Below, in pieces: positions 1,540-26,492 of a DNA stretch of 64,000 nucleotides. The translations under genes and the position numbers were made by a program. The DNA is taken from positions 1 through 64,000 of the forward strand of contig CALWOX010000004.1 of assembly GCA_944383265.1 (NCBI GenBank). Reading direction: 5' to 3'. This DNA is from an uncultured Lachnospiraceae bacterium (GTDB taxonomy: Bacteria; Bacillota; Clostridia; Lachnospirales; Lachnospiraceae). Numbering within the stretch: the first letter of the stretch is position 1; each line of letters begins with the position of its first letter. A model generated the notes under the pieces. The model saw only the letters and a program-made list of their open reading frames with translations. It had not been told where the DNA came from and searched no databases.

Positions 1540-3886
1540 AGCCCTGATACGGCAGGCAAAGGGCGACGGGAAAGCGCATACCGCGCAGCAGACCATTTCC
1601 TACTTGCAGATGTACCCGGACGGTATCTGCCGGGTAACGGATAAGAAGTATTCCAAAAGTATCGCCTTTGAGGACATTAACTATCAGCTTGCGGGCAGCG
1701 ACGACAAGACCGCCATTTTTGAAAACTGGTGCGATTTCCTCAACTACTTTGACGCTTCCGTATCGGTGCAGCTTTCCTTTATCAATCAGGGGACGCAGCG
1801 GGAGGAAGCGGAAAAAGCCATTGACATACCCCCGCAGGACGACGCTTTCAATTCTATCCGCAGCGAGTACGCGGGTATGCTGAAAAATCAGCTTAGTAAA
1901 GGAAACAACGGGCTTGTGAAGCACAAGTACATCACGTTTTCCGTGGAAGCCGACAACCCGGCGGCGGCAAAATCCCGCCTTGCCCGCATTGAAACCGACA
2001 TACTCAATAACTTCAAGGTGCTTGGCGTGACCGCCCGCCCTCTTAACGGGCAGGAACGCTTAAAGGTGCTGCATGGGGTATTCCACCCGGACGGGGAGCC
2101 GTTTTCGTTCTCCTATGACTGGCTTGCCCCGGCAGGGCTTACCACAAAGGACTTTATCGCCCCGTCCTCTTTCCGGTTCGGGGTGGGCAGGTATTTCCGC
2201 ATGGGGCGAAAAATCGGCGCGGTGTCTTTCCTTGAAATCCTTGCGCCGGAACTGAACGACCGTATGCTTGCCGACATTCTGGACTTGGAAACGGGCGTAA
2301 TCGTCAACTTACATATCCGCAGTATCGACCAGACGGAAGCCATTAAGACCATTAAGCGCAAAATCACAGACCTTGACAAGATGAAGATTGAGGAACAGAA
2401 AAAAGCCGTCCGTTCCGGGTACGACATGGATATAATCCCGTCCGACCTTGCCACGTTCGGCAGCGAAGCGAAAAATCTCTTGCAGGATTTACAAAGCAGG
2501 AATGAGCGAATGTTCCTGTTGACGTTCCTTGTGGTAAACATGGCAGATACGAAGCGGAAACTGGAAAATGACGTGTTCGCGGCGGCGGGTATCGCACAGA
2601 AATATAACTGCGCCCTGACCCGCCTTGACTATCAGCAGGAAGCGGGGCTTATGTCCTCTGTCCCACTTGGGGAAAACCTTGTCCCCATTCAGCGGGGGCT
2701 TACCACTTCCAGTATCGCAATCTTTATCCCCTTTATCACGCAGGAGCTTTTCCAGACCGGGGAAGCCCTCTACTACGGGCTGAACGCGCTTTCCAATAAC
2801 ATGATACTCTGCGACCGCAAGCAGCTTAAAAACCCGAACGGGCTTATCTTGGGAACGCCGGGAAGCGGGAAATCCTTTGCGGCAAAGCGGGAAATGACAA
2901 ATGCGTTCCTCATTACGGACGACGACATTATCATCTGCGACCCGGAAGCCGAGTATTTTTCCCTTGTGCAGCGGCTGAACGGACAGGTGGTACGGCTCTC
3001 CCCGGCAGGGAAAGGCATGGACGGCAAGCCCCAGTATGTGAACCCTATGGATATAAACCTCAATTACAGCGAGGACGACAACCCCCTTGCTTTAAAAAGC
3101 GATTTTATCCTTTCTCTCTGTGAACTTGTCATTGGCGGCAAGGAGGGCTTGCAGCCTGTCGATAAGACCGTCATTGACCGGGCGGTACGGAACGTGTACC
3201 GCCCGTTTTTAGCTGACCCCGACCCTGCGAAAATGCCTGTCCTTGGCGACCTCTACGACGAGCTTCTAAGGCAGCCGGAGCCGGAAGCGGCGCGGATTGC
3301 GGCGGCGTTGGAGCTGTATGTCTCCGGCTCTCTGAACGTCTTTAACCACCGTACCAACGTGGAGCTGAATAACCGCCTTGTCTGCTTTGATATTAAGCAG
3401 CTTGGGAAGCAGCTCAAAAAGTTAGGTATGCTCATTGTGCAAGACCAGGTATGGAACCGCGTGACCGTCAACCGGGCAGAGAAAAAGGCAACGCGCTACT
3501 ACATGGACGAATTTCACTTGCTTCTGAAAGAGGAACAGACCGCCGCGTACAGCGTGGAAATCTGGAAGCGGTTCCGTAAATGGGGCGGCATACCGACCGC
3601 CATTACCCAGAACGTGAAAGACCTTTTGGCAAGCCGCGAGGTGGAGAACATCTTTGAGAACAGCGATTTTGTCCTCATGCTCAATCAGGCGCAGGGCGAC
3701 CGGGCTATCCTTGCAGGGCAGTTAGGCATTTCCCCACAGCAGATGAAGTATGTGACCCATACCGAAGCGGGCGAGGGGCTTATCTTCTACGGGAACGTGG
3801 TGCTGCCCTTTGTAGACCGCTTCCCGAAGGACACGGAGCTTTACCGGGTAATGACGACGAAGCCGGAGGAAGTGGGGGACGCATGA
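1451..3886 (+). CDS. VirB4-like conjugation ATPase
   Basis: This 811-residue cytoplasmic ATPase should power the mating channel. The Walker A motif GTPGSGKS is at about residues 468-475, and the Walker B-like YYMDEFH has its Asp at about residue 686, as in VirB4/TrsE proteins. The region before the P-loop is the usual N-terminal VirB4 domain. The start is TTG 1451, with AAAGGAGG about 8 bases upstream, inside the end of the PrgI gene. Its stop overlaps the ATG of the DNA methyltransferase gene by four bases (ATGA), so the two are co-translated. Length and motif order look complete. Confidence 0.92.
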   Translation: MSKRQAAQARAAAPAKGKRKLTRAEKKQIEALIRQAKGDGKAHTAQQTISYLQMYPDGICRVTDKKYSKSIAFEDINYQLAGSDDKTAIFENWCDFLNYFDASVSVQLSFINQGTQREEAEKAIDIPPQDDAFNSIRSEYAGMLKNQLSKGNNGLVKHKYITFSVEADNPAAAKSRLARIETDILNNFKVLGVTARPLNGQERLKVLHGVFHPDGEPFSFSYDWLAPAGLTTKDFIAPSSFRFGVGRYFRMGRKIGAVSFLEILAPELNDRMLADILDLETGVIVNLHIRSIDQTEAIKTIKRKITDLDKMKIEEQKKAVRSGYDMDIIPSDLATFGSEAKNLLQDLQSRNERMFLLTFLVVNMADTKRKLENDVFAAAGIAQKYNCALTRLDYQQEAGLMSSVPLGENLVPIQRGLTTSSIAIFIPFITQELFQTGEALYYGLNALSNNMILCDRKQLKNPNGLILGTPGSGKSFAAKREMTNAFLITDDDIIICDPEAEYFSLVQRLNGQVVRLSPAGKGMDGKPQYVNPMDINLNYSEDDNPLALKSDFILSLCELVIGGKEGLQPVDKTVIDRAVRNVYRPFLADPDPAKMPVLGDLYDELLRQPEPEAARIAAALELYVSGSLNVFNHRTNVELNNRLVCFDIKQLGKQLKKLGMLIVQDQVWNRVTVNRAEKKATRYYMDEFHLLLKEEQTAAYSVEIWKRFRKWGGIPTAITQNVKDLLASREVENIFENSDFVLMLNQAQGDRAILAGQLGISPQQMKYVTHTEAGEGLIFYGNVVLPFVDRFPKDTELYRVMTTKPEEVGDA

Positions 3887-4803
3887 GAAAATTGACACAT
3901 TTCAGCCTGTTTACCGGGATTGGCGGAATTGACCTTGCAGCAGAAGCAGCGGGATTTTCTACCGTCTGTCAATGTGAATGGGCGGAATACCCAAACAAAG
4001 TGCTTGAAAAGCATTGGCCGTATGTGCCGCGCTTTCAAGACATTACAACCGTAACAAAGGAGGCATTTATTGAAAAAACAGGACAAGAAACAGTCACGCT
4101 CATCTCCGGGGGCTTCCCCTGCCAGCCATTTTCCGCAATCGGCCCGAAGCAGGGATTTTCCGACCCCCGTTATCTCTGGCCGGAAATGTGCCGCGTCATT
4201 AAGGAGCTGCGCCCCCGTTGGGTGCTTGGCGAAAATGTTGCTAACTTCATCAATATGGGGCTCCACAAAACGCTCTTTGACTTGGAGCAGGCGGGATATG
4301 CTGTTTGGACATTCGTACTTCCTGCTTGCGCCGTCGGCGCATGGCATGAACGCAAGCGAACTTTTATCGTGGGGGCTGATGTTTCCCACACCACTTGCTT
4401 CCGACACAGGTTCAAAGGCAAATGTAGAGCGGATAAGTCTAACGAAAGCGGGAGCGTTCCGCAGACAGAAAAGGGACGGGACATACTGGACGCCCAAACT
4501 GTCGGAAACCATTTACTTTCTGACCCCGACAACCGATATGACCCAGCGTTTCAACCCCGAATGGGTGGAATGGCTCATGGGATTCCCACAGGGGTGGACG
4601 GAAATCTCTTATGGGGCATAGAACCATTGAATATTCCCCGGCTTGTTCCAGACAAAAAAGACCGGGCAAAACGGCTGAAAACGCTTGGCAATGCGGTTGT
4701 CCCGGCGCAGGTATATCCGATACTTAGATATATCGCAGACATAGAACTTGGGCGCTGCCGGGAGTGGTGTGTATTTTCGGAGGGAGGAGGTGGAACGCCA
4801 TAG
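3883..4803 (+). CDS. DNA (cytosine-5-)-methyltransferase, orphan
   Basis: This 306-residue C5-cytosine methyltransferase contains the ordered motifs of the family: FTGIGGIDLA (AdoMet binding, residues 10-19), GGFPCQPFS with catalytic Cys80, ENV at 117-119, and a C-terminal LGNAVVPAQV (motif X). The stretch between motifs VIII and X is short, so the target-recognition region is small. There is no restriction endonuclease next to it. It lies inside the transfer operon, overlapping virB4 by 4 bp, which suggests it marks the element's own DNA to escape host restriction, in parallel with the Ard fusion downstream. The recognition site cannot be read from the sequence. Confidence 0.9.
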   Translation: MRKLTHFSLFTGIGGIDLAAEAAGFSTVCQCEWAEYPNKVLEKHWPYVPRFQDITTVTKEAFIEKTGQETVTLISGGFPCQPFSAIGPKQGFSDPRYLWPEMCRVIKELRPRWVLGENVANFINMGLHKTLFDLEQAGYAVWTFVLPACAVGAWHERKRTFIVGADVSHTTCFRHRFKGKCRADKSNESGSVPQTEKGRDILDAQTVGNHLLSDPDNRYDPAFQPRMGGMAHGIPTGVDGNLLWGIEPLNIPRLVPDKKDRAKRLKTLGNAVVPAQVYPILRYIADIELGRCREWCVFSEGGGGTP

Positions 4804-8722: not shown

Positions 8723-10828
8723 TTGACTTCACATATCTTAGTAATCGCTGAAAAGCCCAGTGTGGCGCAGTCTATCGCCGCTGTCCTTGGCGCAAGAGAG
8801 AAAAAGGACGGCTTTATCGAGGGGAACGGCTACCTTGTTTCATGGTGTGTCGGTCATTTGGTAGGGCTTGCGGAAGCTGCCGCCTATGGGGAACAGTACA
8901 GGAAATGGAGCTATGACAGCTTACCCATTCTGCCGCAGGAATGGAAATACACCGTCGCCGCCGATAAGAAAGCACAGTTTGACACCCTCAAAGACCTTAT
9001 GCACCGGGAGGACGTTTCCGAAGTCGTCAACGCCTGCGACGCAGGACGCGAGGGGGAATTGATTTTCCGTTTCGTCTATGAAGTTGCCGGGTGTAAAAAG
9101 CCCATGCGCCGCCTTTGGATTTCCTCAATGGAGGACGAAGCTATCCGGGACGGCTTCTCCCACTTAAAGGACGGACGGGACTATGACCCCCTCTTTGCTT
9201 CTGCCCTTTGCAGGGCAAAAGCTGACTGGATTATCGGTATCAACGCCACCCGCCTTTTCTCCTGCCTTTATAACCATACCCTGAACGTGGGGCGCGTCCA
9301 GACCCCGACCTTAAAAATGCTTGTTGACCGGGACGCTGCCATTACCACGTTCAAGAAAGAAAAATACTATCATGTGCGGCTCATGCTCCCCGGCGCGGAA
9401 GCCATAAGCGAACGGCTCCCCGCCGCTGATGAAGCGCGGGAACTGAAAAAGGCTTGCGAAGCAGCGCAGGCGGTTTGTGCTTCCCTTTCCAGAGAACAGA
9501 AAACCGCAGCCCCGCCGAAGCTCTTTGACCTCACTTCCTTACAACGGGAAGCGAACCGGATTTTCGGCTATACCGCAAAGCAGACCCTTGACCTTGCACA
9601 AGCTCTTTACGAAAAGCGGCTCCTTACTTATCCGAGGACAGACAGCAGCTACCTGACCGACGACATGGGCGACACGGCGGCGGATATCATCACAATGCTA
9701 TGCGGAAAGCTCCCCTTTATGGAGGGCGTTGCCCTCACGCCGGAAGTCTCCCGGCTCTTAAACAGCAAAAAGGTGTCCGACCACCACGCAATCATTCCTA
9801 CTATGGAGCTTGCAAAAACCGACCTTTCCGGGCTTCCGGAAACGGAACGGAATATCCTTACCCTTGCCGGGGCAAGGCTTCTCATGGCTGCCGCCGAACC
9901 GCATACCTTTGAAGCGGTCACGGCGGTTTTTGAATGTGCGGGACAGACCTTTACCGCAAAGGCAAGGGCGGTACTTTCCGACGGTTGGAAAGGCTTGGAA
10001 CGCCGCTACCGGGCGACCCTCAAAACAAAACCAGACCCGGAGGACGACGGAGAAAGCGGGCTTCTCCCCGGTACACTCTCCTTTAGCGAGGGGCAGACCT
10101 TTGACAGTCCCACGGCAAAGGTAACGGAGCATGACACCACGCCGCCGAAGCCACACAACGAAGCGTCCCTGCTCTCCGCTATGGAACGCGCCGGGAATGA
10201 GGAAACCGACCCAGACGCGGAACGCCGGGGGCTTGGAACGCCTGCGACCCGCGCCGCTGTCATTGAAAAGTTAGTCAAGGGCGGTTTTGTGGAGCGTAAG
10301 GGGAAGCAGCTTATCCCTACAAAGGACGGTATCAACCTTGTATGCGTCCTGCCGGAAGCCCTCACTTCCCCGAAGCTGACCGCCGAATGGGAAAACAACC
10401 TGACGCAGATAGCAAAGGGAAAGGCAGACCCGGACGCATTTATGGGCGGTATCGAGGAAATGGCAAAGGGGCTTGTGAAATCCTATCCCTTCCTTTCCGA
10501 CGAGAAAAAAGACCTGTTCAAGCCGGAACGTGCCGAGCTTGGCAAATGCCCCCGCTGCGGCTCCCCGGTCTATGAGGGGAAAAAGAACTATTATTGCAGC
10601 AGCCGGGAATGTGCCTTTACCATGTGGAAGAACGACCGTTTCTTTGAGGAAAGGAAAGTAACCTTTTCCCCGAAAATCGCCGCTGCGCTCCTAAAGGACG
10701 GCAAGGCAGCCGTGAAAAAGCTCTATTCCCCGAAAACAGGCAAGACCTATGAGGGAACCGTCCTTTTGGCTGATACGGGCGGGAAGTACGTCAATTACCG
10801 GGTGGAGCTTCCGAAGAAACGAAAGTAA
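8723..10828 (+). CDS. topB: DNA topoisomerase III (type IA)
   Basis: This 701-residue type IA topoisomerase starts with the Toprim domain (HILVIAEKPSVAQSIAAVLG; DAGREGELIFR). It has the catalytic tyrosine in LLTYPRTDSSYL (Tyr about 303) and ends with a zinc-ribbon-like segment, CPRCGSPVYEG then YYCSSRECAF, near 608-632. The start is TTG 8723, placed after AAAGGAGG. Such enzymes are standard in Tn1549-like elements and probably resolve or relax the transferring DNA. The gene follows a terminator and precedes a 207-bp control region. Confidence 0.93.
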   Translation: MTSHILVIAEKPSVAQSIAAVLGAREKKDGFIEGNGYLVSWCVGHLVGLAEAAAYGEQYRKWSYDSLPILPQEWKYTVAADKKAQFDTLKDLMHREDVSEVVNACDAGREGELIFRFVYEVAGCKKPMRRLWISSMEDEAIRDGFSHLKDGRDYDPLFASALCRAKADWIIGINATRLFSCLYNHTLNVGRVQTPTLKMLVDRDAAITTFKKEKYYHVRLMLPGAEAISERLPAADEARELKKACEAAQAVCASLSREQKTAAPPKLFDLTSLQREANRIFGYTAKQTLDLAQALYEKRLLTYPRTDSSYLTDDMGDTAADIITMLCGKLPFMEGVALTPEVSRLLNSKKVSDHHAIIPTMELAKTDLSGLPETERNILTLAGARLLMAAAEPHTFEAVTAVFECAGQTFTAKARAVLSDGWKGLERRYRATLKTKPDPEDDGESGLLPGTLSFSEGQTFDSPTAKVTEHDTTPPKPHNEASLLSAMERAGNEETDPDAERRGLGTPATRAAVIEKLVKGGFVERKGKQLIPTKDGINLVCVLPEALTSPKLTAEWENNLTQIAKGKADPDAFMGGIEEMAKGLVKSYPFLSDEKKDLFKPERAELGKCPRCGSPVYEGKKNYYCSSRECAFTMWKNDRFFEERKVTFSPKIAAALLKDGKAAVKKLYSPKTGKTYEGTVLLADTGGKYVNYRVELPKKRK

Positions 10829-10831
10829 CGC

Positions 10832-10931
10832 AGCAAGCATAGGAAAGGGGTACCCTTTCCGTAAAATCCCCGCTTCCCCTTACCGGGAACGACGGGGATT
10901 TTTGCTTGTTGGGAAGTGTCCCAAACCCTCT
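10832..10931 (+). repeat. Copy A of a 100-bp two-block inverted repeat; candidate oriT or shared leader
   Basis: Two blocks, 10832-10863 (32 nt) and 10902-10931 (30 nt), are identical to the reverse complement of 19665-19696 and 19598-19627. The first block contains the palindrome GGAAAGGG-GTA-CCCTTTCC; the second contains TTGGGA-AGTG-TCCCAA. The 38 bases between the blocks differ from copy B but again form a hairpin (AAATCCCCG with CGGGGATTT). The site lies upstream of the Ard fusion gene; copy B lies upstream of mobC, in the same orientation relative to the gene it precedes. Confidence 0.8.
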
Positions 10932-11035
10932 GAAAAAATAAAAAACACTTTGGCAAAAGCGCGGCAGCCCCGTAGTAGGAAGTAAAACCGGAAAACGGCA
11001 GCTTCCGCGTTGCCACTGGCGAAAGGAGGTTATAC

Positions 11036-14000
11036 ATGGCAAGTTTGCGCGACGCGATAAAGGCACAGCAGGAAGAACTACAAGGCGGTAACGCATGGGT
11101 GGCGTTCTGGAAAGAGGGGCGTTCCTGGCGCAGCGAAGCGTTCCACCTTGATATGGGCGCGACCCTCTACCCGGAGGACGAATGGCGGCTGCGGGAAATC
11201 GAAGCGGCAGACCCCGCCGCTATCGTACTGAACGGATATTTGAGCGAGGACATGACCCTTGACGAGCTGACGACCTCTATCCGTTACCACTATGAACACC
11301 GCATGAACGGGATTACCGGGTTCCTCACAGAGTACAGCGACCGCCTATCCCCGGAGGAAATCGAGAAAGGACGGGCAGCCGCCCGCGCCGCAGGGCTTCC
11401 CTTTTCCGAAAAACCGTTCCGGGACTGGGAAGATTTTGACCCTTATGTATATGACGGCAGCATGAGTATAGAGGACTACGAGTTTATGCAGCGCATGATT
11501 GAAAAAGAAAGGAGTGAACGAATGGACGAACCGATTTTAAGCGGGTATCTTTCCAATCTTGGGAAGTACACCGAGGGCAGACCCGCGGGCGAATGGGTAA
11601 CATTCCCCACGACTGGCGCACATCTGAAAGAAGTCTTTGACCGTATCGGCATTGATTTTAAGCATTACGAAGAATGGCATTTTACGGAATATCAATCCTC
11701 TGTTCCGGGCTTGACAGAACACCTAAGCGAGTATTCCCACCCCGACGAGCTGAACTATTTAGCAAAGTTGCTTTCCATGCAGTTTGACGACGACCGGGAA
11801 AAATTCGTTGCCGCCCTTACCTACGGCGACCACACAGGCAGCTTGCAGGACATTATCAACCTTGCACAGAACCTTGACTGCTACTGGATTTACCCGTCCG
11901 TCCACAATGAGGAAGAATACGGGCATTACCTTGTTGATGAACTGGAAGAACCCGAATTGCCGGAGGAAGCAAAAAAGTATTTCATGTATGAGGAATACGG
12001 GCGGGACGCAGCTATCAATGACGGGGGACTGTTTACCGAACAGGGCTACATTTACAACAACCGCAACACCTTTACAGAATGGTACGACGGGCGGGACGTG
12101 CCGGAGGAATACCGGGTAACGCCTGCACCGCCGGAGCCGGGACGCCCAGACCCTAAAAAGGTGGAAATGGACGCTGCCCCCGCAGGGCAGACCACAGCGC
12201 AGCCAAAGGAGCAGGCACAGGAACCGCGCCCGGTTATTCCCATTGTCCTTACGTCCGAAAAGCCCGCCGACAAGCTCAAAGAGATTACCGACCGTCTGGA
12301 GCAGGGGATAACGGAACTGTTTGAAAGCGAGCGTTACAAAGAGTATCTGCGCGTCATGTCGAAATTCCACAATTACAGCTTTAACAATACGCTGCTTATC
12401 GCCATGCAGAAGCCCGACGCTTCCCTTGTGGCAGGCTTTTCCTCTTGGAAAAATAACTTTGGGCGGAACGTGATGAAAGGCGAAAAGGGAATCAAAATCA
12501 TAGCCCCGTCGCCGTTTACGGTAAAGCAGGAAGTAGAGAAAACCGACCCGCAGACCGGGAAGCCTGTTATCGGGAAGGACGGGAAGCCCGTTACCGAGGA
12601 AAAGGAAATCAAGGTACCCGCCTATAAGGTGGTATCTGTCTTTGATGTGTCCCAGACCGAGGGACGGGAACTGCCGGATATAGCCGTGGACGAGCTGACT
12701 GGGGACGTTGACCGCTTCAAGGACTTTTTCGCAGCACTGGAACAGGCTTCCCCTGTCCCTATTGGCTTTGAGAAAATCGAGGGCGGCGCACACGGCTATT
12801 ACCACTTGGAGGAAAAGCGGATTGCCATTGACGAGGGTATGAGCGACTTGCAGACCCTTAAAACCGCTATCCATGAAATCGCCCATGCGAAGCTCCACGA
12901 CATAGACTTAAATGCCCCGAAAGAGGAACAAAAGCCCCGCGTTGACCGCCGCACCCGTGAGGTGGAAGCGGAAAGCGTCGCCTATACCGTCTGCCAACAC
13001 TACGGGCTTGACACGTCGGACTATTCGTTTGGATATGTCGCCGGGTGGAGCAGCGGAAAAGAACTTGTGGAGCTTAGAGGCTCCCTTGAAACAATCCGCA
13101 GTACCGCCGCAGAAATGATAAACGCCATTGACGGGCATTTTGCGGAGCTTCAAAAGGCACAGGAGAAAGAACAGGCACAGCCGCAGCATGAGGGTAACAC
13201 CCCGGAGCAGCCGGAAGCTGCCCCGCAGGAGAAAGCCGCCTTTACCCCCGAAACCATTTACCGGGTACGCCGCAACCCATACAGTGACAGGGAGGAAAAC
13301 GCCTATCTGCTGCAAGCCTTTGTCACGCAGGAAAACGGGCGGGCAAAAATGGGCGAAGTGCTTTTCCGGGGGACACCGGAAAAATGCCGGGAGCTTTTGG
13401 GACAGTTAAACGCCGGGGAACTGACCGAGGGGCAGGTAAAGGAACTGTACGCAAAGGCGCAGGAGCAGCCGGAAACCGGGCGGGACGACACCTTTTCCAT
13501 TTACCAGTTAAAGGACGGGGACGAAACACGGGACTACCGTTTTGAGCCTTACGACCGCCTGCAGGCGGCGGGGCTTGCCGTTGACCGGGCGAACTATGCG
13601 CTTGTCTATACCGCGCCCCTTGTGCCGGGAACGTCCCTTGACGACATTTTTACCTGGTTCAATATCGACCACCCGAAAGATTTCAAAGGACATAGCCTTT
13701 CCGTTTCTGATGTGGTGGTGCTTCATCAGGGCGGGCAGGACACCGCCCACTATGTGGACCGTGGGGATTTTAAGCAGATACCAGAGTTTTTGCAGGAGAA
13801 ACAGCCGCAGCGGGAAAATCCTTTAAAAGCCGCCGAGCAGACCACCGAGCAAAACTACAACATGATTGACGGACGGATAAATAACACCCCGACCGTGGAC
13901 GAACTGGAAGCAAAGGTCAAGGCGGGGGAAACCATTTCCCTTGTTGACCTGGCGAACGCGGTCAAAGCGGATAAGGAGCGCGGCAGGGCGGCGAAGCCGG

Positions 14001-14101
14001 AAAAGAAGCCCTCTATCCGGGCGCAGCTCAAAGCCGATAAGGAACGGGCGGCGCAGAAGAAACCCTCAAAGCAGAAATCACAGGGCTTGGAAAGGAGCTG
14101 A
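11036..14101 (+). CDS. Multidomain antirestriction protein: ArdA + ArdC/metallopeptidase + YodL/DUF4316-like
   Basis: This 1021-residue fusion starts at ATG 11036 behind AAAGGAGG. An ArdA-like region (about 20-360, including NAWVAFWKEGRSW and LSNLGKYTEGRPAGEW) should mimic DNA and block type I restriction enzymes. From about 400 an ArdC-like part follows: an N-terminal ssDNA-binding-type region (YSFNNTLLIAMQKPDASLVA), then an HExxH metallopeptidase motif HEIAHAKLHD at about 613-622. A YodL-like domain (about 820-930) and a Lys-rich C-terminus like DUF4316 complete it. It likely protects incoming element DNA in the recipient. Domain assignments rest on remembered family features; the limits are approximate. 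Confidence 0.82.
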   Translation: MASLRDAIKAQQEELQGGNAWVAFWKEGRSWRSEAFHLDMGATLYPEDEWRLREIEAADPAAIVLNGYLSEDMTLDELTTSIRYHYEHRMNGITGFLTEYSDRLSPEEIEKGRAAARAAGLPFSEKPFRDWEDFDPYVYDGSMSIEDYEFMQRMIEKERSERMDEPILSGYLSNLGKYTEGRPAGEWVTFPTTGAHLKEVFDRIGIDFKHYEEWHFTEYQSSVPGLTEHLSEYSHPDELNYLAKLLSMQFDDDREKFVAALTYGDHTGSLQDIINLAQNLDCYWIYPSVHNEEEYGHYLVDELEEPELPEEAKKYFMYEEYGRDAAINDGGLFTEQGYIYNNRNTFTEWYDGRDVPEEYRVTPAPPEPGRPDPKKVEMDAAPAGQTTAQPKEQAQEPRPVIPIVLTSEKPADKLKEITDRLEQGITELFESERYKEYLRVMSKFHNYSFNNTLLIAMQKPDASLVAGFSSWKNNFGRNVMKGEKGIKIIAPSPFTVKQEVEKTDPQTGKPVIGKDGKPVTEEKEIKVPAYKVVSVFDVSQTEGRELPDIAVDELTGDVDRFKDFFAALEQASPVPIGFEKIEGGAHGYYHLEEKRIAIDEGMSDLQTLKTAIHEIAHAKLHDIDLNAPKEEQKPRVDRRTREVEAESVAYTVCQHYGLDTSDYSFGYVAGWSSGKELVELRGSLETIRSTAAEMINAIDGHFAELQKAQEKEQAQPQHEGNTPEQPEAAPQEKAAFTPETIYRVRRNPYSDREENAYLLQAFVTQENGRAKMGEVLFRGTPEKCRELLGQLNAGELTEGQVKELYAKAQEQPETGRDDTFSIYQLKDGDETRDYRFEPYDRLQAAGLAVDRANYALVYTAPLVPGTSLDDIFTWFNIDHPKDFKGHSLSVSDVVVLHQGGQDTAHYVDRGDFKQIPEFLQEKQPQRENPLKAAEQTTEQNYNMIDGRINNTPTVDELEAKVKAGETISLVDLANAVKADKERGRAAKPEKKPSIRAQLKADKERAAQKKPSKQKSQGLERS

Positions 14102-14105
14102 ACCA

Positions 14106-15050
14106 TTGAATAAGTTTGAGAACGTGGACGTTATCGCGTCCCTTGACGCTATCATGCGGCAGAACACCGCATTTTATCAAGATGATTTTGACATAGACAA
14201 ACGGATTTTGCAGGAAGCAGCGGCAAGACCCGGCGCGGAGGACAGGAAAATCCTCTGGTTTTCCCGCCCGTCCGGGACTTGCTGCGTCCGGGAGCGCGAC
14301 GTGTTCCTAAAGGACACAAGACAGCACAACACATGGCGGTTTTACGGGGAGCAGACCCGCGATACCGTCCTTGCCTATCTGGTGGAGCTGACCGGGAAAG
14401 AGGACGGGAAGCTCAAAGGCAACCTCTATGAGCTTGACTATGAGCAGCACTTCCGGCGCGTGATAGAAAAGTCCGTCCCTGCCGATAATTACACGCTTGT
14501 TTATGAGCATGGGGAGCGCAGCATACCCGCCAGACAGTATTTTGACGGCAACCCCGACCCGCAGCTTGGGAAGTTTGAACGCTTTGAAGCGCAGCCGAAC
14601 GACCCGGAAGCCCTGCGGGGCGTACTCATGGAGGAACAGCGCAGCCGGGAAAAGCTGCGTCCGGGGGATTTCAAAGCCCATGTAACCATGCTGCACGATA
14701 ACAGGATAGAACGGGAAGCCCGCCGCGTGGTGGAGAAAATGAAGTCCTTGCAGGAGCCGAACAGCCCGGACAAGACCCGTTTCATGGTGGAGCTGTCCCC
14801 GTATTTTGTCCGGCTTGCCACAGATAAGGACGCTGACCGCCTGTTTTCCATGCTGCCCTATCAGACCCTTGCCTTTTCCAAAAGCAAAGACCGTTTCGTA
14901 ACCTATGCGCTGATTGACAAAGGCGAGGACAGGAGCAAAGGAATACGCAAGCCCCGCCCCTCTGTCCGGGCGCAGCTTGCCGCAGGCAAAGAGAAAGCCG
15001 CCCCGAAAAAGGCGGCGGCAAAGACCAGACAGAAAGAAATGGAGGTATGA
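14106..15050 (+). CDS. ICE protein of unknown function (314 aa)
   Basis: This soluble protein begins LNKFENVDVIASLDAIMRQN. TTG 14106 is chosen because GGAAAGGAG ends about 8 bases upstream, only 4 bp after the Ard stop. It carries a central segment LYELDYEQHFRRVIEKSVP and a C-terminal RKPRPSVRAQLAAGKEK, which resembles the C-terminus of the preceding Ard fusion (KPSIRAQLKADKER). The two may share a binding partner or derive from a common tail. I recognise it as a regular neighbour of ArdC-type genes in these elements but cannot assign a function. Confidence 0.7.
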   Translation: MNKFENVDVIASLDAIMRQNTAFYQDDFDIDKRILQEAAARPGAEDRKILWFSRPSGTCCVRERDVFLKDTRQHNTWRFYGEQTRDTVLAYLVELTGKEDGKLKGNLYELDYEQHFRRVIEKSVPADNYTLVYEHGERSIPARQYFDGNPDPQLGKFERFEAQPNDPEALRGVLMEEQRSREKLRPGDFKAHVTMLHDNRIEREARRVVEKMKSLQEPNSPDKTRFMVELSPYFVRLATDKDADRLFSMLPYQTLAFSKSKDRFVTYALIDKGEDRSKGIRKPRPSVRAQLAAGKEKAAPKKAAAKTRQKEMEV

Positions 15051-15052
15051 GC

Positions 15053-15259
15053 ATGACACAGTTTACCGTGGAAGAAACGAACCTTTTGAGCATTTACCAT
15101 GAGGGGAGCCGGGAGCAGCTTAGAGAGAACATGAACGCTGCGCTTCCCTACATGGACGCGGATATGCGGGAGCTTGCAAAGCGCACCCTTTCCAAAGTAG
15201 ACGCGCTGACGGAAACGGAATATGCGGAGCTTGCCGTCTACGCCGCTGATGAAGCATGA
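15053..15259 (+). CDS. TTRAP (transposon-transfer assisting) family small protein
   Basis: This 68-residue protein begins MTQFTVEETNLLSIYHEGSR, matching the small acidic helical proteins called transposon-transfer assisting proteins. ATG 15053 sits 6 bases after GGAGGT; ATG 15047, in the same frame, is too close to that site. The molecular role is unknown. The gene overlaps the next one by 4 bp. Confidence 0.75.
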   Translation: MTQFTVEETNLLSIYHEGSREQLRENMNAALPYMDADMRELAKRTLSKVDALTETEYAELAVYAADEA

Positions 15260-15621
15260 GCGCGGTCAAGCGGCTCACGCCGTCGCAAAGCCGGAAAGTC
15301 AATGCCCTTGTAAAGCGGGAGTGCTGCAACTGCGATAACGGACACTGTATCTTACTGGACGACGGGGAGGAATGTGTCTGCCCGCAGCTCATTTCCTATT
15401 CCCTGCTCTGCAAGTGGTTCCGTATCGCCGTACTTCCCGGCGACAAGCTACTCTATGCGGAGCTTTATAAGACCGAGGACAGGAAGAAGTGTACCGAGTG
15501 CGGCGCGTTCTTTGCTTCAAGGTCAAATAATGTCAAATATTGCCCGGACTGCCGGAAGCGTATCACGAACCGACAGGCAGCGGAGCGCATGAGGAAACGC
15601 CGCGCCCTTGTTACGCGATAG
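15256..15621 (+). CDS. Cysteine-rich VLP-domain protein
   Basis: This 121-residue protein has an N-terminal cluster VKRECCNCDNGHCILLDDG and a second Cys set, KKCTECGAFFASRSNNVKYC then PDC, that looks like a treble-clef zinc finger; the C-terminus is Arg-rich. This fits the Cys-rich VLP family found at this place in Clostridia ICEs, probably nucleic-acid binding. ATG 15256 overlaps the TTRAP gene stop. It is the last gene of the forward operon before the terminator at 15749. Confidence 0.75.
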   Translation: MSAVKRLTPSQSRKVNALVKRECCNCDNGHCILLDDGEECVCPQLISYSLLCKWFRIAVLPGDKLLYAELYKTEDRKKCTECGAFFASRSNNVKYCPDCRKRITNRQAAERMRKRRALVTR

Positions 15622-15748
15622 GGGCGAAAACAGCCTTGATTTATGCGGCTTTCCGGGCAGGAAAACAGTGCAGCCGATACAGATTACCTTTTCCCTCAAA
15701 AATAGGGTTCTACTGCGTAACAAAACCATAGCAGCACCCACACAGACA

Positions 15749-15793
15749 CGGGGCGCGGTTAGCCTTTTTTGGCTTTCCGCGCCCCGTTTTTTT
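15749..15793 (+). terminator. Strong terminator at the end of the forward transfer operon; group II intron target
   Basis: CGGGGCGCGG (15749-15758) pairs perfectly with CCGCGCCCCG (15777-15786), with an inner AGCC/GGCT stem, and seven T follow (15787-15793). The group II intron begins at the very next base. Before that insertion the terminator would have faced the stop of the minus-strand gene at 17683 and probably served both operons. Confidence 0.9.
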
Positions 15794-17679
15794 GTGTGCC
15801 CGGCGGGCACACGTTCTAACGGGTGAAAGTCCCTGACCCGCCCGGCAGTGGGAAGGGTGCAGCTAATGGCAAGGGCGTCATCGTGAGGTGGGGTCTGAAG
15901 GAAGCCGGAGGCAAACCACTGGCCTGTAAAAGTTGTCCGGATAGGCTGTAAAGCGTGGATGAGGTTGCAAACCAAACTAAAGTCCAATAACTGCACGGAA
16001 CGCCAACAGTAAACGGGGCAGGTATAAGTGGGAAAGAGCGTGTGAGTACCCGGGGAGGTCTCATGAACATGGCAAAGACGATATAACGTTCGTTGTCATG
16101 GAGTAAAGCTTGCCATGAGAAGTCAGCAGAAGTCATAGTACCGGAACAGCTATAGATGTCCCGGGAAGGACGGAACAGTAGGAGGTGCCATTTCCAAATG
16201 GAAACCGGACATGGAATTAAGTACAGACAACTTCATATTGAAGACTACCTGAGAGAGATACCTGCGGAACAGGGAAGGGGAACAGGAGTGTACGTCCATG
16301 AATGGATTACCGGGAACCCTGACACCAACACGGACTTTTGGACGGACAACCTGCTTGATACGATACTCAGGAGCGACAACCTGAATGCCGCATACAAGAG
16401 AGTGAAAGCAAACAGAGGGTCAGGGGGAATGGATGGGATGCAGGTGGATGAACTTCTGCCCTACCTGAAAGACCACCGGGACGAACTGGTCAGGCAGCTG
16501 AGGGAGGGGAAGTACAAACCCAACCCCGTCCGAAGGGTAGAAATACCCAAAGAAGAGGGAAACAAAGTCAGGAAGCTGGGAATTCCAACTGTGGTCGACC
16601 GGATGATACAACAGGCGATAGCGCAGGAACTGACGCCTATTTATGAGGAACAGTTTTCGGATAACAGCTACGGCTTCCGGCCAGGCAGGAGCGCACAGGA
16701 CGCACTGGCAAAGTGCAGAGAGTATGTGGATGAAGGATACGCCTACGCAATCAGTATGGACTTGCAGTCCTATTTTGATACCGTAAACCACAGCAAACTG
16801 ATAGAGGTGCTGTCGAGGACGATCAAGGATGGACGAGTAGTCTCGCTGATACACAAGTACCTGAAGGCCGGGGTAATGGAAGACGGAGGATTTCGTGCGA
16901 CAACCGAGGGGGTGCCCCAGGGAGGCCCCTTAAGCCCGCTGTGTGGAAATGTCATGTTGAACGAGCTGGACAAGGAACTGGAACACAGAGGCCATAAGTT
17001 CGTGAGATATGCGGATGACTGCATCATCCTATGCAAGAGCCGGAAAAGCGCAGAAAGAACGCTGGAGCACATCATCCCATTTATAACGGGAAAGCTGTAC
17101 CTGAAAGTCAACCTTGAGAAAACGACAGTGAGTCACATCAGCAAAGTGAAGTACCTTGGATACGGTTTCTACCGAAACAAAGGAAGATGCCGTATGCGGG
17201 TACACCCCAGGTCAATCAGGAAGATGAAGGACCATCTGAGGGAATTGACAGTGAGAGGAAACAAGTGGAGCAACCCGGAGAGAGAGGAGAAGCTCAGGAG
17301 ATATACGACTGGGTGGATAAACTACTACCGGTATGCGGACATGAAGAGACTGATGGAGGACACAGACGAATGGCTCCGCCGCAGGATACGGGCGGTGTAC
17401 TGGAAACAATGGAAAAGAGTGCGAACGAGGTATAAAATGCTTCGTGCACTCCATCTGCCGGAGTGGCAGGTGCATAAACTGTCAAACTGTCGGAAGGGGA
17501 CATGGAGGGCGGCGGAGATGCTGAACTCTGTGCTCACCAAGACGATAATAGTGGACAGACTCGGATACCCATCCATGACTGCCCACTATCTGAAAGTACG
17601 CGTAAACTATTGAACCGCGTAGTACTGAACGGTACGCTACGTGGTGTGGAAGGGGAGGGTCAAATCTCCCCTATCCGAT
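15794..17679 (+). mobile_element. Group II intron (1886 bp) with maturase
   Basis: The 5' end GTGTGCCCGGCGGGCACACG fits the GUGYG consensus and begins directly after the terminator T-run. A structured 5' region follows (including ACGGGTGAAAGTCCC), then the maturase gene. Domain V is at about 17612-17650 (GAACCGCGTAGTAC ... GTGGTGTGG) and domain VI at about 17650-17675 (GGGGAG/CTCCCC arms). The 3' end is set after CTATCCGAT, matching the AY rule. Insertion just behind a terminator hairpin is characteristic of bacterial class C introns. The class is inferred from position only. Confidence 0.85.
16198..17613 (+). CDS. Group II intron reverse transcriptase/maturase
   Basis: This 471-residue protein is encoded in intron domain IV. 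It has RT motifs YGFRPGRSAQDAL, the catalytic YADD (about 271-274), and the thumb/maturase X region GWINYYRYADMKRLM near the C-terminus. No HNH endonuclease Cys pairs are visible at the end. It should promote intron splicing and reverse splicing into DNA. The start is ATG 16198, 10 bases after GGAGGT; an in-frame ATG at 16156 adds 14 residues without a site. It appears intact, so the intron may still move. Confidence 0.92.
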   Translation: METGHGIKYRQLHIEDYLREIPAEQGRGTGVYVHEWITGNPDTNTDFWTDNLLDTILRSDNLNAAYKRVKANRGSGGMDGMQVDELLPYLKDHRDELVRQLREGKYKPNPVRRVEIPKEEGNKVRKLGIPTVVDRMIQQAIAQELTPIYEEQFSDNSYGFRPGRSAQDALAKCREYVDEGYAYAISMDLQSYFDTVNHSKLIEVLSRTIKDGRVVSLIHKYLKAGVMEDGGFRATTEGVPQGGPLSPLCGNVMLNELDKELEHRGHKFVRYADDCIILCKSRKSAERTLEHIIPFITGKLYLKVNLEKTTVSHISKVKYLGYGFYRNKGRCRMRVHPRSIRKMKDHLRELTVRGNKWSNPEREEKLRRYTTGWINYYRYADMKRLMEDTDEWLRRRIRAVYWKQWKRVRTRYKMLRALHLPEWQVHKLSNCRKGTWRAAEMLNSVLTKTIIVDRLGYPSMTAHYLKVRVNY

Positions 17680-17682
17680 TGC

Positions 17683-17934
17683 CTATACGATTTCTATATC
17701 TGCTATTCTGGCCGCTATTACAGCGTAAAGCCTGCCGTCGTCTACTTCTATGATAATCATATCATTTTTTTTAGGAATATCCCCATATTCCACACATAAA
17801 ACGCGACCTGCGAGAGTTTCTCCGGTGTCGAACGTAATCCTGACTTTACAGCCCGTGTCAAGATACATTTCCATGCCGCACATTTCATTTTCCATTGTTA
17901 TTTTGTAAGACGTTCTAATCTCTGTTATTTTCAT
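17683..17934 (-). CDS. Small ICE protein of unknown function (83 aa), end of the relaxase operon
   Basis: The 83-residue protein MKITEIRTSYKITMENEMCG... has alternating hydrophobic residues and glycine turns suggestive of a small beta-barrel (SH3- or Sm-like); I do not recognise a family. Its ATG begins 1 bp after the relaxase stop, with AAGGAACGGG upstream, so it is translated with the relaxase. Its stop codon (17683-17685) is only 3 bp from the 3' end of the group II intron. The intron therefore did not damage it but separated it from its probable terminator. Confidence 0.65.
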   Translation of the reverse strand: MKITEIRTSYKITMENEMCGMEMYLDTGCKVRITFDTGETLAGRVLCVEYGDIPKKNDMIIIEVDDGRLYAVIAARIADIEIV

Positions 17935-17935
17935 A

Positions 17936-19282
17936 CTATTCCCGTTCCTTTCCTTTTTCCCGTTCCGGCTCCCTTGGCTGCCGTAAAATGCTGTCTATGT
18001 TCTGCTTGATAACGTCGTATTCCCTGACCTGCTTTTTCAGCTTCCCGTAGTCGGCGCGGAGGGCTTCTTTCTGCTCTTGCAGCTTTTCATATTCCGCTTG
18101 CAGGGCTGCAAGGTTCGGCAGCTTGGAAATGCCCGCCGCCTTTAATGCTTTTGCCGCCGCTTCATGGAGAATGACAGTCCCCTCATGGGCTGCCCGGTAT
18201 CGCTCTTTGTTCCTTGCTTTCCGGTAGGTATCATAGGCGGGCTTTGTCTTTTGGAACGTGGAAACATTCTTGATAAGTACAGCCATATCCGCAAGCCGTT
18301 TTTCCACTTCCTTTAGTGCGTCGCCTGCCTTGTCGCTTTCTGTCTGGATTTCCGTTATCTTTGCAGTCAAATCCTCATACCGGCTTATCTGGTGTTCCGT
18401 AAGGAAATTGAGCGTCTTTGCTGCCTGCTTCAGATTATGGATTTTCGCCCATTGTTCATAGCCCCGGCTCTGCGCCGCCTTAATACTGTTCTCAATGTCA
18501 ATGAGTAAGGAAACGCCGCGCTCTGCCTTTGTAGCTTTGGCAGTTCTGGTACGTCTGCCCTCTATCCGTTCCCTTATGGCTTCTTCTGTATAGTCTGCTC
18601 CGAGGGTTTTCAAACGGGTAAACCGTTCCTGTCCCGGAGCGCGGCAGGAAACGTATTTCCCCGGCTTTATCTCATAGCCCAACCCTTGCAGCCGGGAAAG
18701 CAATTCTTCAAAACTGGATACCTGGGGGATAAGCCCATCCACGGCAATTTTCAGCTTGCCTTTCCAACTGGTTCCGGTTTTCTCTGCAAGATATTCCGCA
18801 TAGTTCTTTCCCTTGCCGCCCTTTTGCGGTACGACGACGGACAAACCGTTTTCCCTGCACAGCCTGTCGCTCATGTTCCGTATGCCGTAATAGCTGCGCT
18901 TATTGGAATTGTACTTGTGGTGGTCTACAAAATTGACCGCGCAGAAAATGATATGGTTATGAACGTGTCCCTTGTCTATGTGGGTGGTAAGGACGTATTC
19001 ATATTGCCCCTTTGTTACCGCGTCGGAAAGCTGCTTCCCGATTTCATGGGCTTTCTGATAGTCCACTTCCCCCGGCTCAAAGGACTGTATCAAATGGTGG
19101 GCGAGGTTGTTTCCCCGGTTTAACGCCTGCGCTATGGTAAATTCAAATTCAATGTCTGCCGTTTCCGGCGAGCAGCCAAAGGAGGACACAAGCATTTTCC
19201 CGTCCGTCTTGTCCGGGTTCTGGATATAGTCAAGGGCTTTTTTCAACGTGCTTTTAATAGGCTTAATCTTTGTAACCGCCAT
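17936..19282 (-). CDS. Relaxase/mobilization nuclease (MOBP-like)
   Basis: This 448-residue protein has a probable nicking Tyr in ALDYIQNPDKT (about Tyr19), the motif region FEFTIAQALNRGNNLAHHLI and the metal-binding three-His motif HIDKGHVHNH (His101, 106, 108, 110). The C-terminal half is a long Lys/Glu-rich coiled coil (about 280-440). It should nick oriT and pilot the single strand into the recipient. It overlaps mobC by 40 bp, so the two are co-translated; copy B of the two-block repeat lies upstream of mobC, the usual place of oriT. Convergent with the transfer operon. Confidence 0.9.
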   Translation of the reverse strand: MAVTKIKPIKSTLKKALDYIQNPDKTDGKMLVSSFGCSPETADIEFEFTIAQALNRGNNLAHHLIQSFEPGEVDYQKAHEIGKQLSDAVTKGQYEYVLTTHIDKGHVHNHIIFCAVNFVDHHKYNSNKRSYYGIRNMSDRLCRENGLSVVVPQKGGKGKNYAEYLAEKTGTSWKGKLKIAVDGLIPQVSSFEELLSRLQGLGYEIKPGKYVSCRAPGQERFTRLKTLGADYTEEAIRERIEGRRTRTAKATKAERGVSLLIDIENSIKAAQSRGYEQWAKIHNLKQAAKTLNFLTEHQISRYEDLTAKITEIQTESDKAGDALKEVEKRLADMAVLIKNVSTFQKTKPAYDTYRKARNKERYRAAHEGTVILHEAAAKALKAAGISKLPNLAALQAEYEKLQEQKEALRADYGKLKKQVREYDVIKQNIDSILRQPREPEREKGKERE

Positions 19283-19572
19283 ATCTCCGCAAGCACCCCC
19301 TTTATTTCCTCTATGTCCTCTTGGTAGACGCTGCCCGTGGCATTGACGCGCCGCGCTATCTGGTTGATGTTGACACCGATTTTCTGTATCTCCGCTGTCA
19401 TGGCTTTTATGTCGGCGTGGTCTATCTGAATGATGTACCCGTCGATTGCCATTTTCCGAAGATAGGCTTCCATGTTCCGGGTGGGGACGAGCTTCATTTT
19501 CTGTTCAATCAACGCCCGTTCTTCCTCTGTTACTCTGAATTTGATTTGCACTGTCCGTTTCCTGCCGTCCAT
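19243..19572 (-). CDS. MobC-like relaxosome accessory protein
   Basis: This 109-residue protein has an N-terminal ribbon-helix-helix-type DNA-binding region (MDGRKRTVQIKFRVTEEER) and the conserved MobC segment IQKIGVNINQIARRVNATGS. It probably binds near the nick site and helps the relaxase. The start at 19572 is preceded by AAAGGAG; the frame stays open upstream into the repeat region but those residues are not protein-like for this family. It overlaps the relaxase gene. Confidence 0.85.
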   Translation of the reverse strand: MDGRKRTVQIKFRVTEEERALIEQKMKLVPTRNMEAYLRKMAIDGYIIQIDHADIKAMTAEIQKIGVNINQIARRVNATGSVYQEDIEEIKGVLAEIWRLQRLSLLKAR

Positions 19573-19597
19573 GCGTTCACGCTCCTTTCCGTTTTTT

Positions 19598-19696
19598 AGA
19601 GGGTTTGGGACACTTCCCAACAAGCAATTTTCAACCGACGCGCCGTAGCGCAGGAGGGCGAAAATACGGAAAGGGTACCCCTTTCCTATGCTTGCT
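19598..19696 (-). repeat. Copy B of the two-block inverted repeat, upstream of mobC; candidate oriT
   Basis: Blocks 19665-19696 and 19598-19627 are exact reverse complements of the two blocks of copy A (10832-10863 and 10902-10931). The 37 bases between the blocks differ in sequence but keep hairpin potential (TTTTC/GAAAA ends with GCGC-TACG-GCGC inside, read on the minus strand). It lies 25 bp from the mobC start. Position next to mobC and relaxase favours an origin of transfer; a shared transcriptional or RNA control element is the alternative. Confidence 0.8.
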
Positions 19697-19828
19697 AAGA
19701 AACTTTCTCCCTTTATCCCTACTACGGAAGAAACCTTGATTTTGCCAAACTTACGCAAAAGAAAAACGCTGCAATCTTCAAAGATTACAACGCTTCCTAA
19801 AATCCATATTCAATTTTGCCGGACGCTT

Positions 19829-20188
19829 TCATTCGTCCTCTTTTTCGACTTCCGCTATTTCTTTTGCGGTGGCTGTCACAATCCGAAGCCCCGTATCGCT
19901 TATCCCGTCGAGCAGCGCGTCAAGCTGCCGCCGCTGCGTGTTCTTTTCGGCGGGTTTGTCTGAAAGGAACTGGTCTACGGATATATTGTAACGGAGCATA
20001 AGCTCAAAGAAAATCTGCAAACTGGGGTGCTGCCCGTTGTTCTCTATATTCGCAAGGTAGCGGGGAGAGATAAACATTTCGTCGCATACTTTCTTACGGC
20101 TCTCTTTCCTGTCCGTTCGCGCTGCCTTTATCGCTGCTCCAAAAGCCTTGAAGTCGTATTTTGGTACTGGTCTTTTTGCCATATTCAT
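19829..20188 (-). CDS. XRE-family transcriptional regulator
   Basis: This 119-residue protein has a Cro/CI-type helix-turn-helix over about residues 14-70 (FGAAIKAARTDRKESRKKVC, ISPRYLANIENNGQHPS) and an acidic C-terminal helix. It is divergent from the HTH/two-component operon, across 163 bp that hold a strong forward promoter. It may set the basal expression of the cargo or of the mobilization operon. MNMAKRPV is taken as the start; GGGGAACAG is a weak upstream site. Confidence 0.85.
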   Translation of the reverse strand: MNMAKRPVPKYDFKAFGAAIKAARTDRKESRKKVCDEMFISPRYLANIENNGQHPSLQIFFELMLRYNISVDQFLSDKPAEKNTQRRQLDALLDGISDTGLRIVTATAKEIAEVEKEDE

Positions 20189-22219: not shown

Positions 22220-22272
22220 CAAGGTTAATGCAAGGTTGCGGCAAGGTTAATGCAAGACTGGCGTGATATGAT
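22220..22272 (+). promoter_or_regulatory. Direct-repeat operator and promoter of the ABC transporter operon
   Basis: CAAGGTT occurs at 22220, 22231 and 22242, exactly 11 bp apart, and a fourth partial unit (CAAGACT) follows at 22253. The repeat CAAGGTTAATGCAAG appears twice, 22 bp apart. A -10 sequence TATGAT is at 22267-22272, so the repeats cover the -35 position. This is the usual layout for activation by an OmpR-type regulator, and the regulator gene is just upstream. Confidence 0.75.
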
Positions 22273-25704: not shown

Positions 25705-26054
25705 GCCTATCATAACCTGCGACGACCCTTAGCCATATAGGAATGGCGGCTTTAGGAGGTAGCCGCCATGATACATAGGGCGTATCGACAAATTTCTATA
25801 AATTTCTACATATCAAAAAAAACCCGGTCACCGCCGGGGAATATTCCACCCTTGAATATGAACTGTCAAATCATCTAAATACTTTTATTATTTCCTTTGC
25901 GCCTGTCTGCGCCTTGCAGACGGGTGCATTTTGTTTTCAGAAAAACTTTTTTAAAAAAGTTTGCCATTCCGGTTGGCAAATCTACGGTGCGTCCGTGGAA
26001 GGCAGCCGAAAAGGGATAAATAACCCACCCCTGGGACGGAAAGGGGGTGAGAAT
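25705..26054 (+). other. Structured leader region before the sigma-like gene
   Basis: This stretch holds no large gene but several hairpins: TGGCGGCT/AGCCGCCA (25744-25768) with GGAGG in its loop, GTCTGC/GCAGAC near 25905-25921, the perfect 20-bp palindrome AAACTTTTTTAAAAAAGTTT at 25943-25962, and TTGCC/GGCAA just after. Together with the short reading frame at 25768 it looks like a regulated 5' leader for the 26055 gene, such as attenuation, as is known for Tn916-type regulatory regions. Confidence 0.5.
25768..25878 (+). CDS. Possible leader peptide (36 aa)
   Basis: ATG 25768 lies 9 bases after TTAGGAGG and opens a frame starting MIHRAYRQISINFYISKK, which stops at 25876-25878. The ribosome site sits in the loop of an 8-bp hairpin whose right arm ends at the start codon, so translation could be switched by folding. 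No known family; the support is the strong ribosome site only. Confidence 0.3.
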   Translation: MIHRAYRQISINFYISKKTRSPPGNIPPLNMNCQII

Positions 26055-26492
26055 ATGAACCCCGAACGGTTTGAATGGCAGACCAGATGTGAGTTTAATG
26101 CGTATTGCAAACATGCGCTACGCAACGAACTGATTGACGCTCTGCGGGAGCGTAAAAGTCGGGAACGCCGAGAAGTTTATTTTTCAGACCTTTCCCCGCA
26201 TGAAGAGAAGCAACTTTATACCGTTGACCGCTATTTTGTCAACGAGGAAGAAGAAGCCTTTTGCGCGGGTGGCTTGAAGATAACGGCAAAGCTGTTGGCT
26301 GACGCTTTACATTCCCTGCCGGACGAGAAACGTCAAGCTGTATTGCTGTATTACTTTTTCAGTATGACAGATGCGGAGATTGCGGAAATGATGAAAATTC
26401 CCCGCAGCACAGTACAGTATCGACGGACAAGCTCTTTTGAACTGCTAAAAAGATTTTTGGAGGAACGCGCTGATGAATGGAATGAACTCTAA
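26055..26492 (+). CDS. Sigma-70-like regulator of the ICE (Tn916 Orf7-like)
   Basis: This 145-residue protein has a sigma region 4-like helix-turn-helix at the C-terminus (LHSLPDEKRQAVLLYYFFSM, TDAEIAEMMKIPRSTVQYRR) and a shorter region-2-like start (ELIDALRERKSRER). Such proteins sit upstream of xis/int in Tn916- and Tn1549-type elements and control transfer or excision genes. ATG 26055 follows AAAGGGGGTGAG; the longer open frame upstream runs through the hairpins and is unlikely. It overlaps the next gene by 20 bp. Confidence 0.85.
   Translation: MNPERFEWQTRCEFNAYCKHALRNELIDALRERKSRERREVYFSDLSPHEEKQLYTVDRYFVNEEEEAFCAGGLKITAKLLADALHSLPDEKRQAVLLYYFFSMTDAEIAEMMKIPRSTVQYRRTSSFELLKRFLEERADEWNEL

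Follow-up and report, generated by a model that had tools for sequence, protein, structure and literature searches.

Why does an element with a single relaxase gene carry two units of one specificity, set in opposing orientation? The question is raised by a stretch of 64,000 nucleotides from an uncultured Lachnospiraceae bacterium (GenBank assembly GCA_944383265.1, contig CALWOX010000004.1, positions 1 to 64,000), the whole of which is referred to here as the window. The element is an integrative and conjugative element (ICE) of the Tn1549 type. One unit (A) lies between topB and a gene for an antirestriction (Ard) fusion protein, and the other (B) lies upstream of mobC and the relaxase gene. 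We consider it reasonably probable that B is the canonical origin of transfer (oriT) and that A is a second origin with the same MobC specificity, which would be nicked on the opposite strand. The units and their parts are as follows:

10832..10931 (+): unit A, second oriT-like unit, in the interval from topB to the Ard/YodL fusion (covariance-model match, E = 3e-19)
10831..10840 (-): predicted nic region of A, ATGCTTG|CT, nick at 10834/10833 (match to RYGCTTG|C, PMC7755788; 8 nt from the palindrome; strand predicted)
10842..10860 (no strand): P2 palindrome of A (GGAAAGGGGTACCCTTTCC), predicted MobC site (class equal in A and B in 55/58 elements; double changes at all P2 pairs)
10861..10905 (+): middle hairpin P3 of A, G+C-rich, 3' side GGGGATTTTT, possible topB-operon terminator (GGG(G)ATTTT in 60/60 A units)
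10902..10931 (+): right block of A, TTGCTTGTTGGG, with the P4 hairpin and ACCCTCT (mean pairwise identity 0.96 versus 0.55 just downstream)
19598..19696 (-): unit B, canonical oriT unit, 5' of mobC (model match, E = 9e-21; the published Tn1549 oriT, 22239-22266, maps there)
19688..19697 (+): predicted nic region of B, CCTATGCTTG|CT (ATGCTTG|CT), nick at 19694/19695 (match to RYGCTTG|C, eight bases from the inverted repeat)
19668..19686 (no strand): P2 palindrome of B, same sequence as that of A (class concordance, covariation)
19624..19667 (-): middle hairpin P3 of B (ATTTTC...GAAAAT), not terminator-like (GGG(G)ATTTT in 0/77 B units)
19598..19627 (-): right block of B (mean pairwise identity 0.97)

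Each unit is approximately 100 bp in length. As an earlier, sequence-only reading of this DNA had stated, 10832-10931 and the reverse complement of 19598-19696 share identical blocks of 32 and 30 bases, while the middles differ in sequence and keep their hairpin potential: single-strand folds of both A (z = -5.0) and B (z = -3.8) beat 200/200 dinucleotide shuffles. Complementarity between the left arms (10821-10863 and 19665-19707) is 91% across 43 nt, including the identical 32-base core, and between the right arms (10902-10937 and 19592-19627) it is 97% across 36 nt. There are exactly two occurrences of the left core in the whole 2.3-Mb genome, and A and B are the only strong covariance-model matches within the window; because the training set of the model includes these sequences or near relatives, their E-values denote uniqueness, not discovery. 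The order of parts in each unit is a nic-like edge (AGCAAGCATA), the palindrome P2 (GGAAAGGGGTACCCTTTCC), the middle hairpin P3, and the right block TTGCTTGTTGGG, which includes hairpin P4 (GGGAAGTGTCCC) and ACCCTCT. Unit A begins 4 bases past the topB stop codon, and the mobC start is 47 bases beyond the end of unit B. The description of each copy as facing a downstream operon is literally correct, but A lies in the 3' region of topB and the predicted polarity of the nicked strand is opposite to the operon sense.

Unit B can be placed by reference to Tn1549 itself, the oriT of which is listed as 22239-22266 (28 nt) with the nic sequence RYGCTTG|C (PMC7755788). This range projects to L003:28014-28041 in the Tn1549 of pMG2200 (the left end of that element being taken as the point where the match to empty-site plasmids stops), within 1-2 nt of the left block of its unit B at L003:28015-28042. 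On the nicked strand, the left block consists of the palindrome, 8 nt, and the nic site (GGAAAGGGTACCCCTTTCC TATGCTTG|CT). In the window, unit B is intergenic and occupies the same place upstream of mobC and the relaxase gene as the published site. Because the published range falls on the left block of B, with its palindrome and nic, unit B is, on this correspondence, the canonical origin of transfer of the element. Nicking and transfer activity have been reported for its Tn1549 homologue (Tsvetkova 2010, in the account of it given by PMC12857230).

Is A, then, a unit of the same kind? The nic edge, palindrome, and right block of A match those of the canonical oriT. The alignment proposed by the sequence-only reading was made with a family set comprising 80 fetched relaxase relatives, the pMG2200 element, a Monoglobus element, and the window, and it shows the blocks at fixed places: both units are present in 58 Tn1549-type elements, with A directly 3' of topB (save in L037, which has no recognisable topB) and B directly preceding mobC in all 58. 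The two units are inverted in 55/55 pairs measured automatically, at a spacing of 2.7-10.3 kb. Mean pairwise identity among A units is 0.91 in the left block and 0.96 in the right block versus 0.55 just downstream, and among B units it is 0.90 and 0.97, respectively. When A and B of the same element are compared, the left blocks are 98% identical and the middles 56%. The position of B on the published site, together with the nic edge, palindrome class, and family-wide conservation of A, lends support to the earlier suggestion of a duplicated oriT. The 8.7-kb inversion predicted alongside it was not borne out, as no inverted isomer of the A-B segment was seen among the 58 two-copy elements.

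The same comparison bears on whether A might be a passive remnant, that is, an oriT copy that once arrived with an inserted relaxase-less element or arose through duplication and has no current function. Similar units do exist in other elements, and A has been lost in L005 and degraded in L057 (see below). Against this, A stands beside topB across the 58 elements, including the Tn1549 of pMG2200 (the relaxase of which is only 65% identical to that of the window), its blocks retain 91-96% identity while the flanks fall to 55%, and it follows the P2 class of its element. We give a functionless A only a slight chance.

The P2 palindrome falls into five classes in the family set, and A and B are of the same class in 55 of the 58 elements. 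A MobC residue in a predicted beta-strand (KF[R/Y]VTE) follows the P2 class of B with 2 exceptions in 70 loci: R is found with the AAGCG class in 47/48 loci and with AAAGG in 7/8, and Y with AAAAG in 12/12 and AAGTG in 2/2. By analogy, this relation parallels that between SmpO and IR2 in the pWBG749 plasmids, in which the ribbon-helix-helix protein SmpO has been shown to set oriT specificity and follows IR2 (PMC4652767). On the relaxase tree, class changes number 6 for B, 8 for A, and 8 jointly.

Several observations weigh against a second origin at A. Once descent is corrected for (2-4 independent pairs), the agreement in class between A and B does not reach significance; there are few independent class switches, so part of the agreement is explained by shared descent, and gene conversion could also homogenise the left blocks. 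The class of A differs from that of B in L024, L029, and L077, with recombination between A and B indicated in L024 and L029 since the topB and relaxase trees place them differently. In L005, the closest relaxase relative (98%), a deletion (L005:13300-17452) joins topB residue 438 to Ard fusion residue 79 and removes A, while in L057 unit A is reduced to a damaged left block; in the other relatives without both units, the loci are truncated. The deletion of A in L005, its degradation in L057, and the class mismatches in L024, L029, and L077 show that A can be dispensed with. L133/L139, an ICE of more distant relationship, has topB and the Ard fusion but only the mob-side unit, which suggests that the second copy is characteristic of the Tn1549 clade. 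Finally, the strand assigned to each nic is predicted from motif and geometry.

The covariation of the hairpins raises the question of whether the units act as DNA or as RNA. The sequence-only reading had offered a shared leader for antirestriction and mobilization genes as an alternative, and in this form A and B would be a structured RNA leader common to two operons, with a regulator or riboswitch-like fold coordinating the Ard and mob genes. Both units do lie in the sense of the next gene, their RNA folds are strong, and P2 and P3 covary: among 62 distinct units, pairs change on both sides in 214 cells versus 63 in shuffles, 95.9% of cells are paired versus 80.4%, and compensatory double changes occur at all P2 pairs (the absolute counts lean towards structure because the alignment was fitted to it). 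G-U pairs, however, are nearly absent (approximately 10 among approximately 750 paired P2/P3 cells), and dyads this perfect, with so few wobbles, suggest that the units act as DNA, in the form of bound palindromes or single-strand hairpins. P1, the pairing of the edges GCAAGCA and TGCTTGT, shows no compensatory change in these 62 units although its right side varies, only one-sided changes and breaks, so that the edges appear to be constrained in their own right. Assignment to an RNA leader or Rfam family was rejected, as no Rfam match was found at unit A or B and G-U pairs make up about 1% of paired P2/P3 cells.

The surrounding signals also separate the two units. A promoter-like motif, TTTGGCA-N14/15-CCGTAGTA, is found in the window at 10949-10977 (+), 3' of A, and at 19749-19720 (-), 5' of B, with no further occurrence there. 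In the family set, it is upstream of B in 58/77 units and downstream of A in 42/60, whereas no A unit has it upstream and no B unit has it downstream (60 A and 77 B units; ≤3 mismatches). The sigma factor encoded by the element (25914-26492) may recognise it. If the motif is a promoter, A lies outside the Ard transcript and B inside the mobC transcript. Furthermore, unit A is kept in L044 and L045 despite the absence of the Ard fusion, and similar units are also found with neither a mob nor an ard gene after them. A shared mRNA leader for antirestriction and mobilization is thus left unsupported, and we consider it very unlikely.

These signals bear differently on the possibility that A binds MobC (and perhaps the relaxase) but starts no transfer. 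It would then be a control site that senses mob expression, represses or terminates the topB/type IV secretion system (T4SS) and mob operons, or loops A and B into one relaxosome. Because B lies between the promoter-like motif and mobC, bound MobC would repress its own gene. Unit A lies at the end of the transfer operon, and its middle hairpin is terminator-like in 60/60 units: GGG(G)ATTTT is present in the middle of every A unit and in none of the 77 B units, a pattern that would fit a terminator closing the topB operon and avoided inside the mob transcript. A sigma-70 scan around A and B called no promoter, and since a terminator scan of the same regions made no call on the hairpin of A, its terminator role stays putative. 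What argues against a control site is that the nic edge AGCAAGCATA, which is unneeded for MobC binding alone, is equally conserved in A and B, and that the full arrangement is also seen in similar units that lie outside any tra operon. We consider this explanation unlikely, though by no means negligible.

If A and B are instead two opposing origins, as we prefer, the ribbon-helix-helix protein MobC would bind P2 in both units and recruit the MOBP relaxase to the adjacent TATGCTTG|CT. The relaxase would then nick the strand opposite to the operon sense, at 19694/19695 on the + strand in B and at 10834/10833 on the - strand in A. The genes flanking the two units are the following:

8723..10828 (+): topB, DNA topoisomerase III, immediately 5' of unit A (PF01131, 1e-111)
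11036..14101 (+): ArdA-ArdC-YodL polyvalent antirestriction fusion, 3' of unit A (PF07275, PF08401, PF14191)
17936..19282 (-): MOBP-type relaxase (PF03432, 8.6e-36; 65% identical to the Tn1549-type relaxase on pMG2200)
19243..19551 (-): mobC, NikA-like/MobC ribbon-helix-helix accessory protein (PF21983, 3.6e-15; PF05713, 2.1e-10)
19829..20188 (-): helix-turn-helix (HTH) regulator, which would enter first from B under the predicted nic strand (PF01381, PF18430)

From B, the leading strand would run rightward through the HTH regulator, cargo, sigma factor, xis, and int; from A, it would run leftward through topB and then the T4SS genes. Because both predicted nics point outward, the last segment to enter would be that from the Ard fusion to mobC, whichever origin is used. 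The earlier expectation that different genes would lead from each copy holds in principle (topB and the T4SS from A; regulator, cargo, and int from B), but neither origin would lead with Ard or mob genes. A pair of the same specificity would persist in opposing orientation because relaxases delete DNA between same-strand oriTs, and the middle hairpin would drift because it is mainly its pairing that is constrained; that of A is also terminator-like in shape, which fits the end of the topB operon. We are evenly divided on a broader proposal: that most Tn1549-type ICEs have a fixed opposing pair of oriTs of one specificity, which would allow one relaxase to start from either strand of the excised circle. 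Whether the process is transfer or rolling-circle replication, either the T4SS and topB genes or the int and cargo genes would then come first, and the antirestriction-mob segment would come last in every case; relaxase-less elements sharing the cell would exploit this type of origin.

Other genes agree with the assignment of the element as a Tn1549-type ICE. They encode a CD1110-family VirB4, a CD1108-family protein, TTRAP, and a Cys-rich VLP protein; beyond the HTH regulator are two-component and ABC-transporter cargo, a sigma factor, a Tn916-type Xis, and a tyrosine integrase, and the end of the element adjoins ychF. A group II intron with a reverse transcriptase/maturase lies between the Cys-rich VLP gene and the relaxase gene (window 15877-17613, +). 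The T4SS operon contains a cytosine DNA methyltransferase gene (dcm superfamily; window 3883-4803, +), and the Tn1549 of pMG2200 has an MT-A70 methyltransferase slightly upstream in its T4SS operon. There is an Rfam pemK RNA match upstream of xis (window 26960-27057, +).

Related units also occur elsewhere. In the Tn1549 of pMG2200, a third, diverged unit (L003:29494-29593, -; 29 bits) with an unrelated palindrome (GGATCAGAATATCC...) lies in the interval from the HTH genes to the vanB cluster. The genome that contains the window has a second MobC-relaxase element (C1:61748-63233; L115, L131), the relaxase of which is 48% identical to that of the window; beside it is a single diverged unit of another P2 class (C1:61748-61847), with no T4SS genes detected nearby. 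Outside the family, the covariance model matches 21/398 genomes of the phylum, and some of these units are located 5' of other MobC-relaxase pairs, most of which have no T4SS genes within reach. No gene for MobC, a relaxase, or the T4SS was detected within approximately 8 kb of the orphan oriT-like units L116, L117, L118, and L119-L128, with the exception of a MobC-like gene near the second unit of L117. One of these, L118:8512-8610 (G269:C10), has the exact P2 of the window and is located beside a large serine recombinase, a TetR regulator, and a MATE transporter; several others adjoin ordinary-looking genes. Units with no mob gene nearby are as expected of DNA oriTs used in trans, and those of the L118 type are, judging from their sequences and surroundings, probable relaxase-less hitchhikers. 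Searches of phage and viral contigs returned nothing beyond a few ICE-like contigs.

If A is an origin, single-origin models, deletion constructs, and oriT databases for Tn1549-type ICEs would be incomplete: removal of the mob-side oriT would not abolish transfer, the order of gene entry would be variable, and relaxase-less hitchhikers would be predictable from the unit. Such ICEs are common among gut Clostridia and, in enterococci, are carriers of vanB. The A/B pair is also a natural test of palindrome reading by a ribbon-helix-helix accessory protein. Neither a second Tn1549 oriT nor a family-wide, fixed opposing pair of one specificity was found in the literature searched, the coverage of which excluded the founding Tn1549 oriT paper.

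Dual origins served by one relaxase and plasmids with multiple oriTs are already known. The conjugative element pAD1 of the Gram-positive host Enterococcus faecalis has two transfer origins, oriT1 and oriT2, with sequences unrelated to the Tn1549-type units. With respect to Tn1549, the left block of unit B is the same site, a palindrome and then TATGCTTG|C upstream of the mobC-relaxase pair. The published site spans the left block of one copy only, and in the portion of PMC7755788 that lists it, the right block, middle hairpin, and opposing copy A are not included, though the Tn1549 of pMG2200 carries A. ICEclc of Pseudomonas knackmussii offers a precedent: in this ICE, a single relaxase recognises both oriT1 and oriT2, and either can start transfer (PMC5714925, PMC6561031). 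Both the element and the relaxase are unrelated to those described here, however, and the Tn1549-type copies are inverted, have a common specificity palindrome, and are kept across an ICE family. The oriTs of the pWBG749 family are similar in being of the MOBP type, with branched single-strand hairpins beside a conserved core and one variable inverted repeat (IR2) that determines specificity via SmpO (PMC4652767). These oriTs are carried by relaxase-less hitchhikers, and staphylococcal plasmids with two oriTs lack same-strand pairs (PMC4652767), which recombine by deletion. The pWBG749 core is different (CTTATGCTCTT), and its multiple oriTs usually differ in specificity and are located on hitchhikers, whereas in the Tn1549-type ICEs the conjugative element itself carries both units, and these are of the same specificity.

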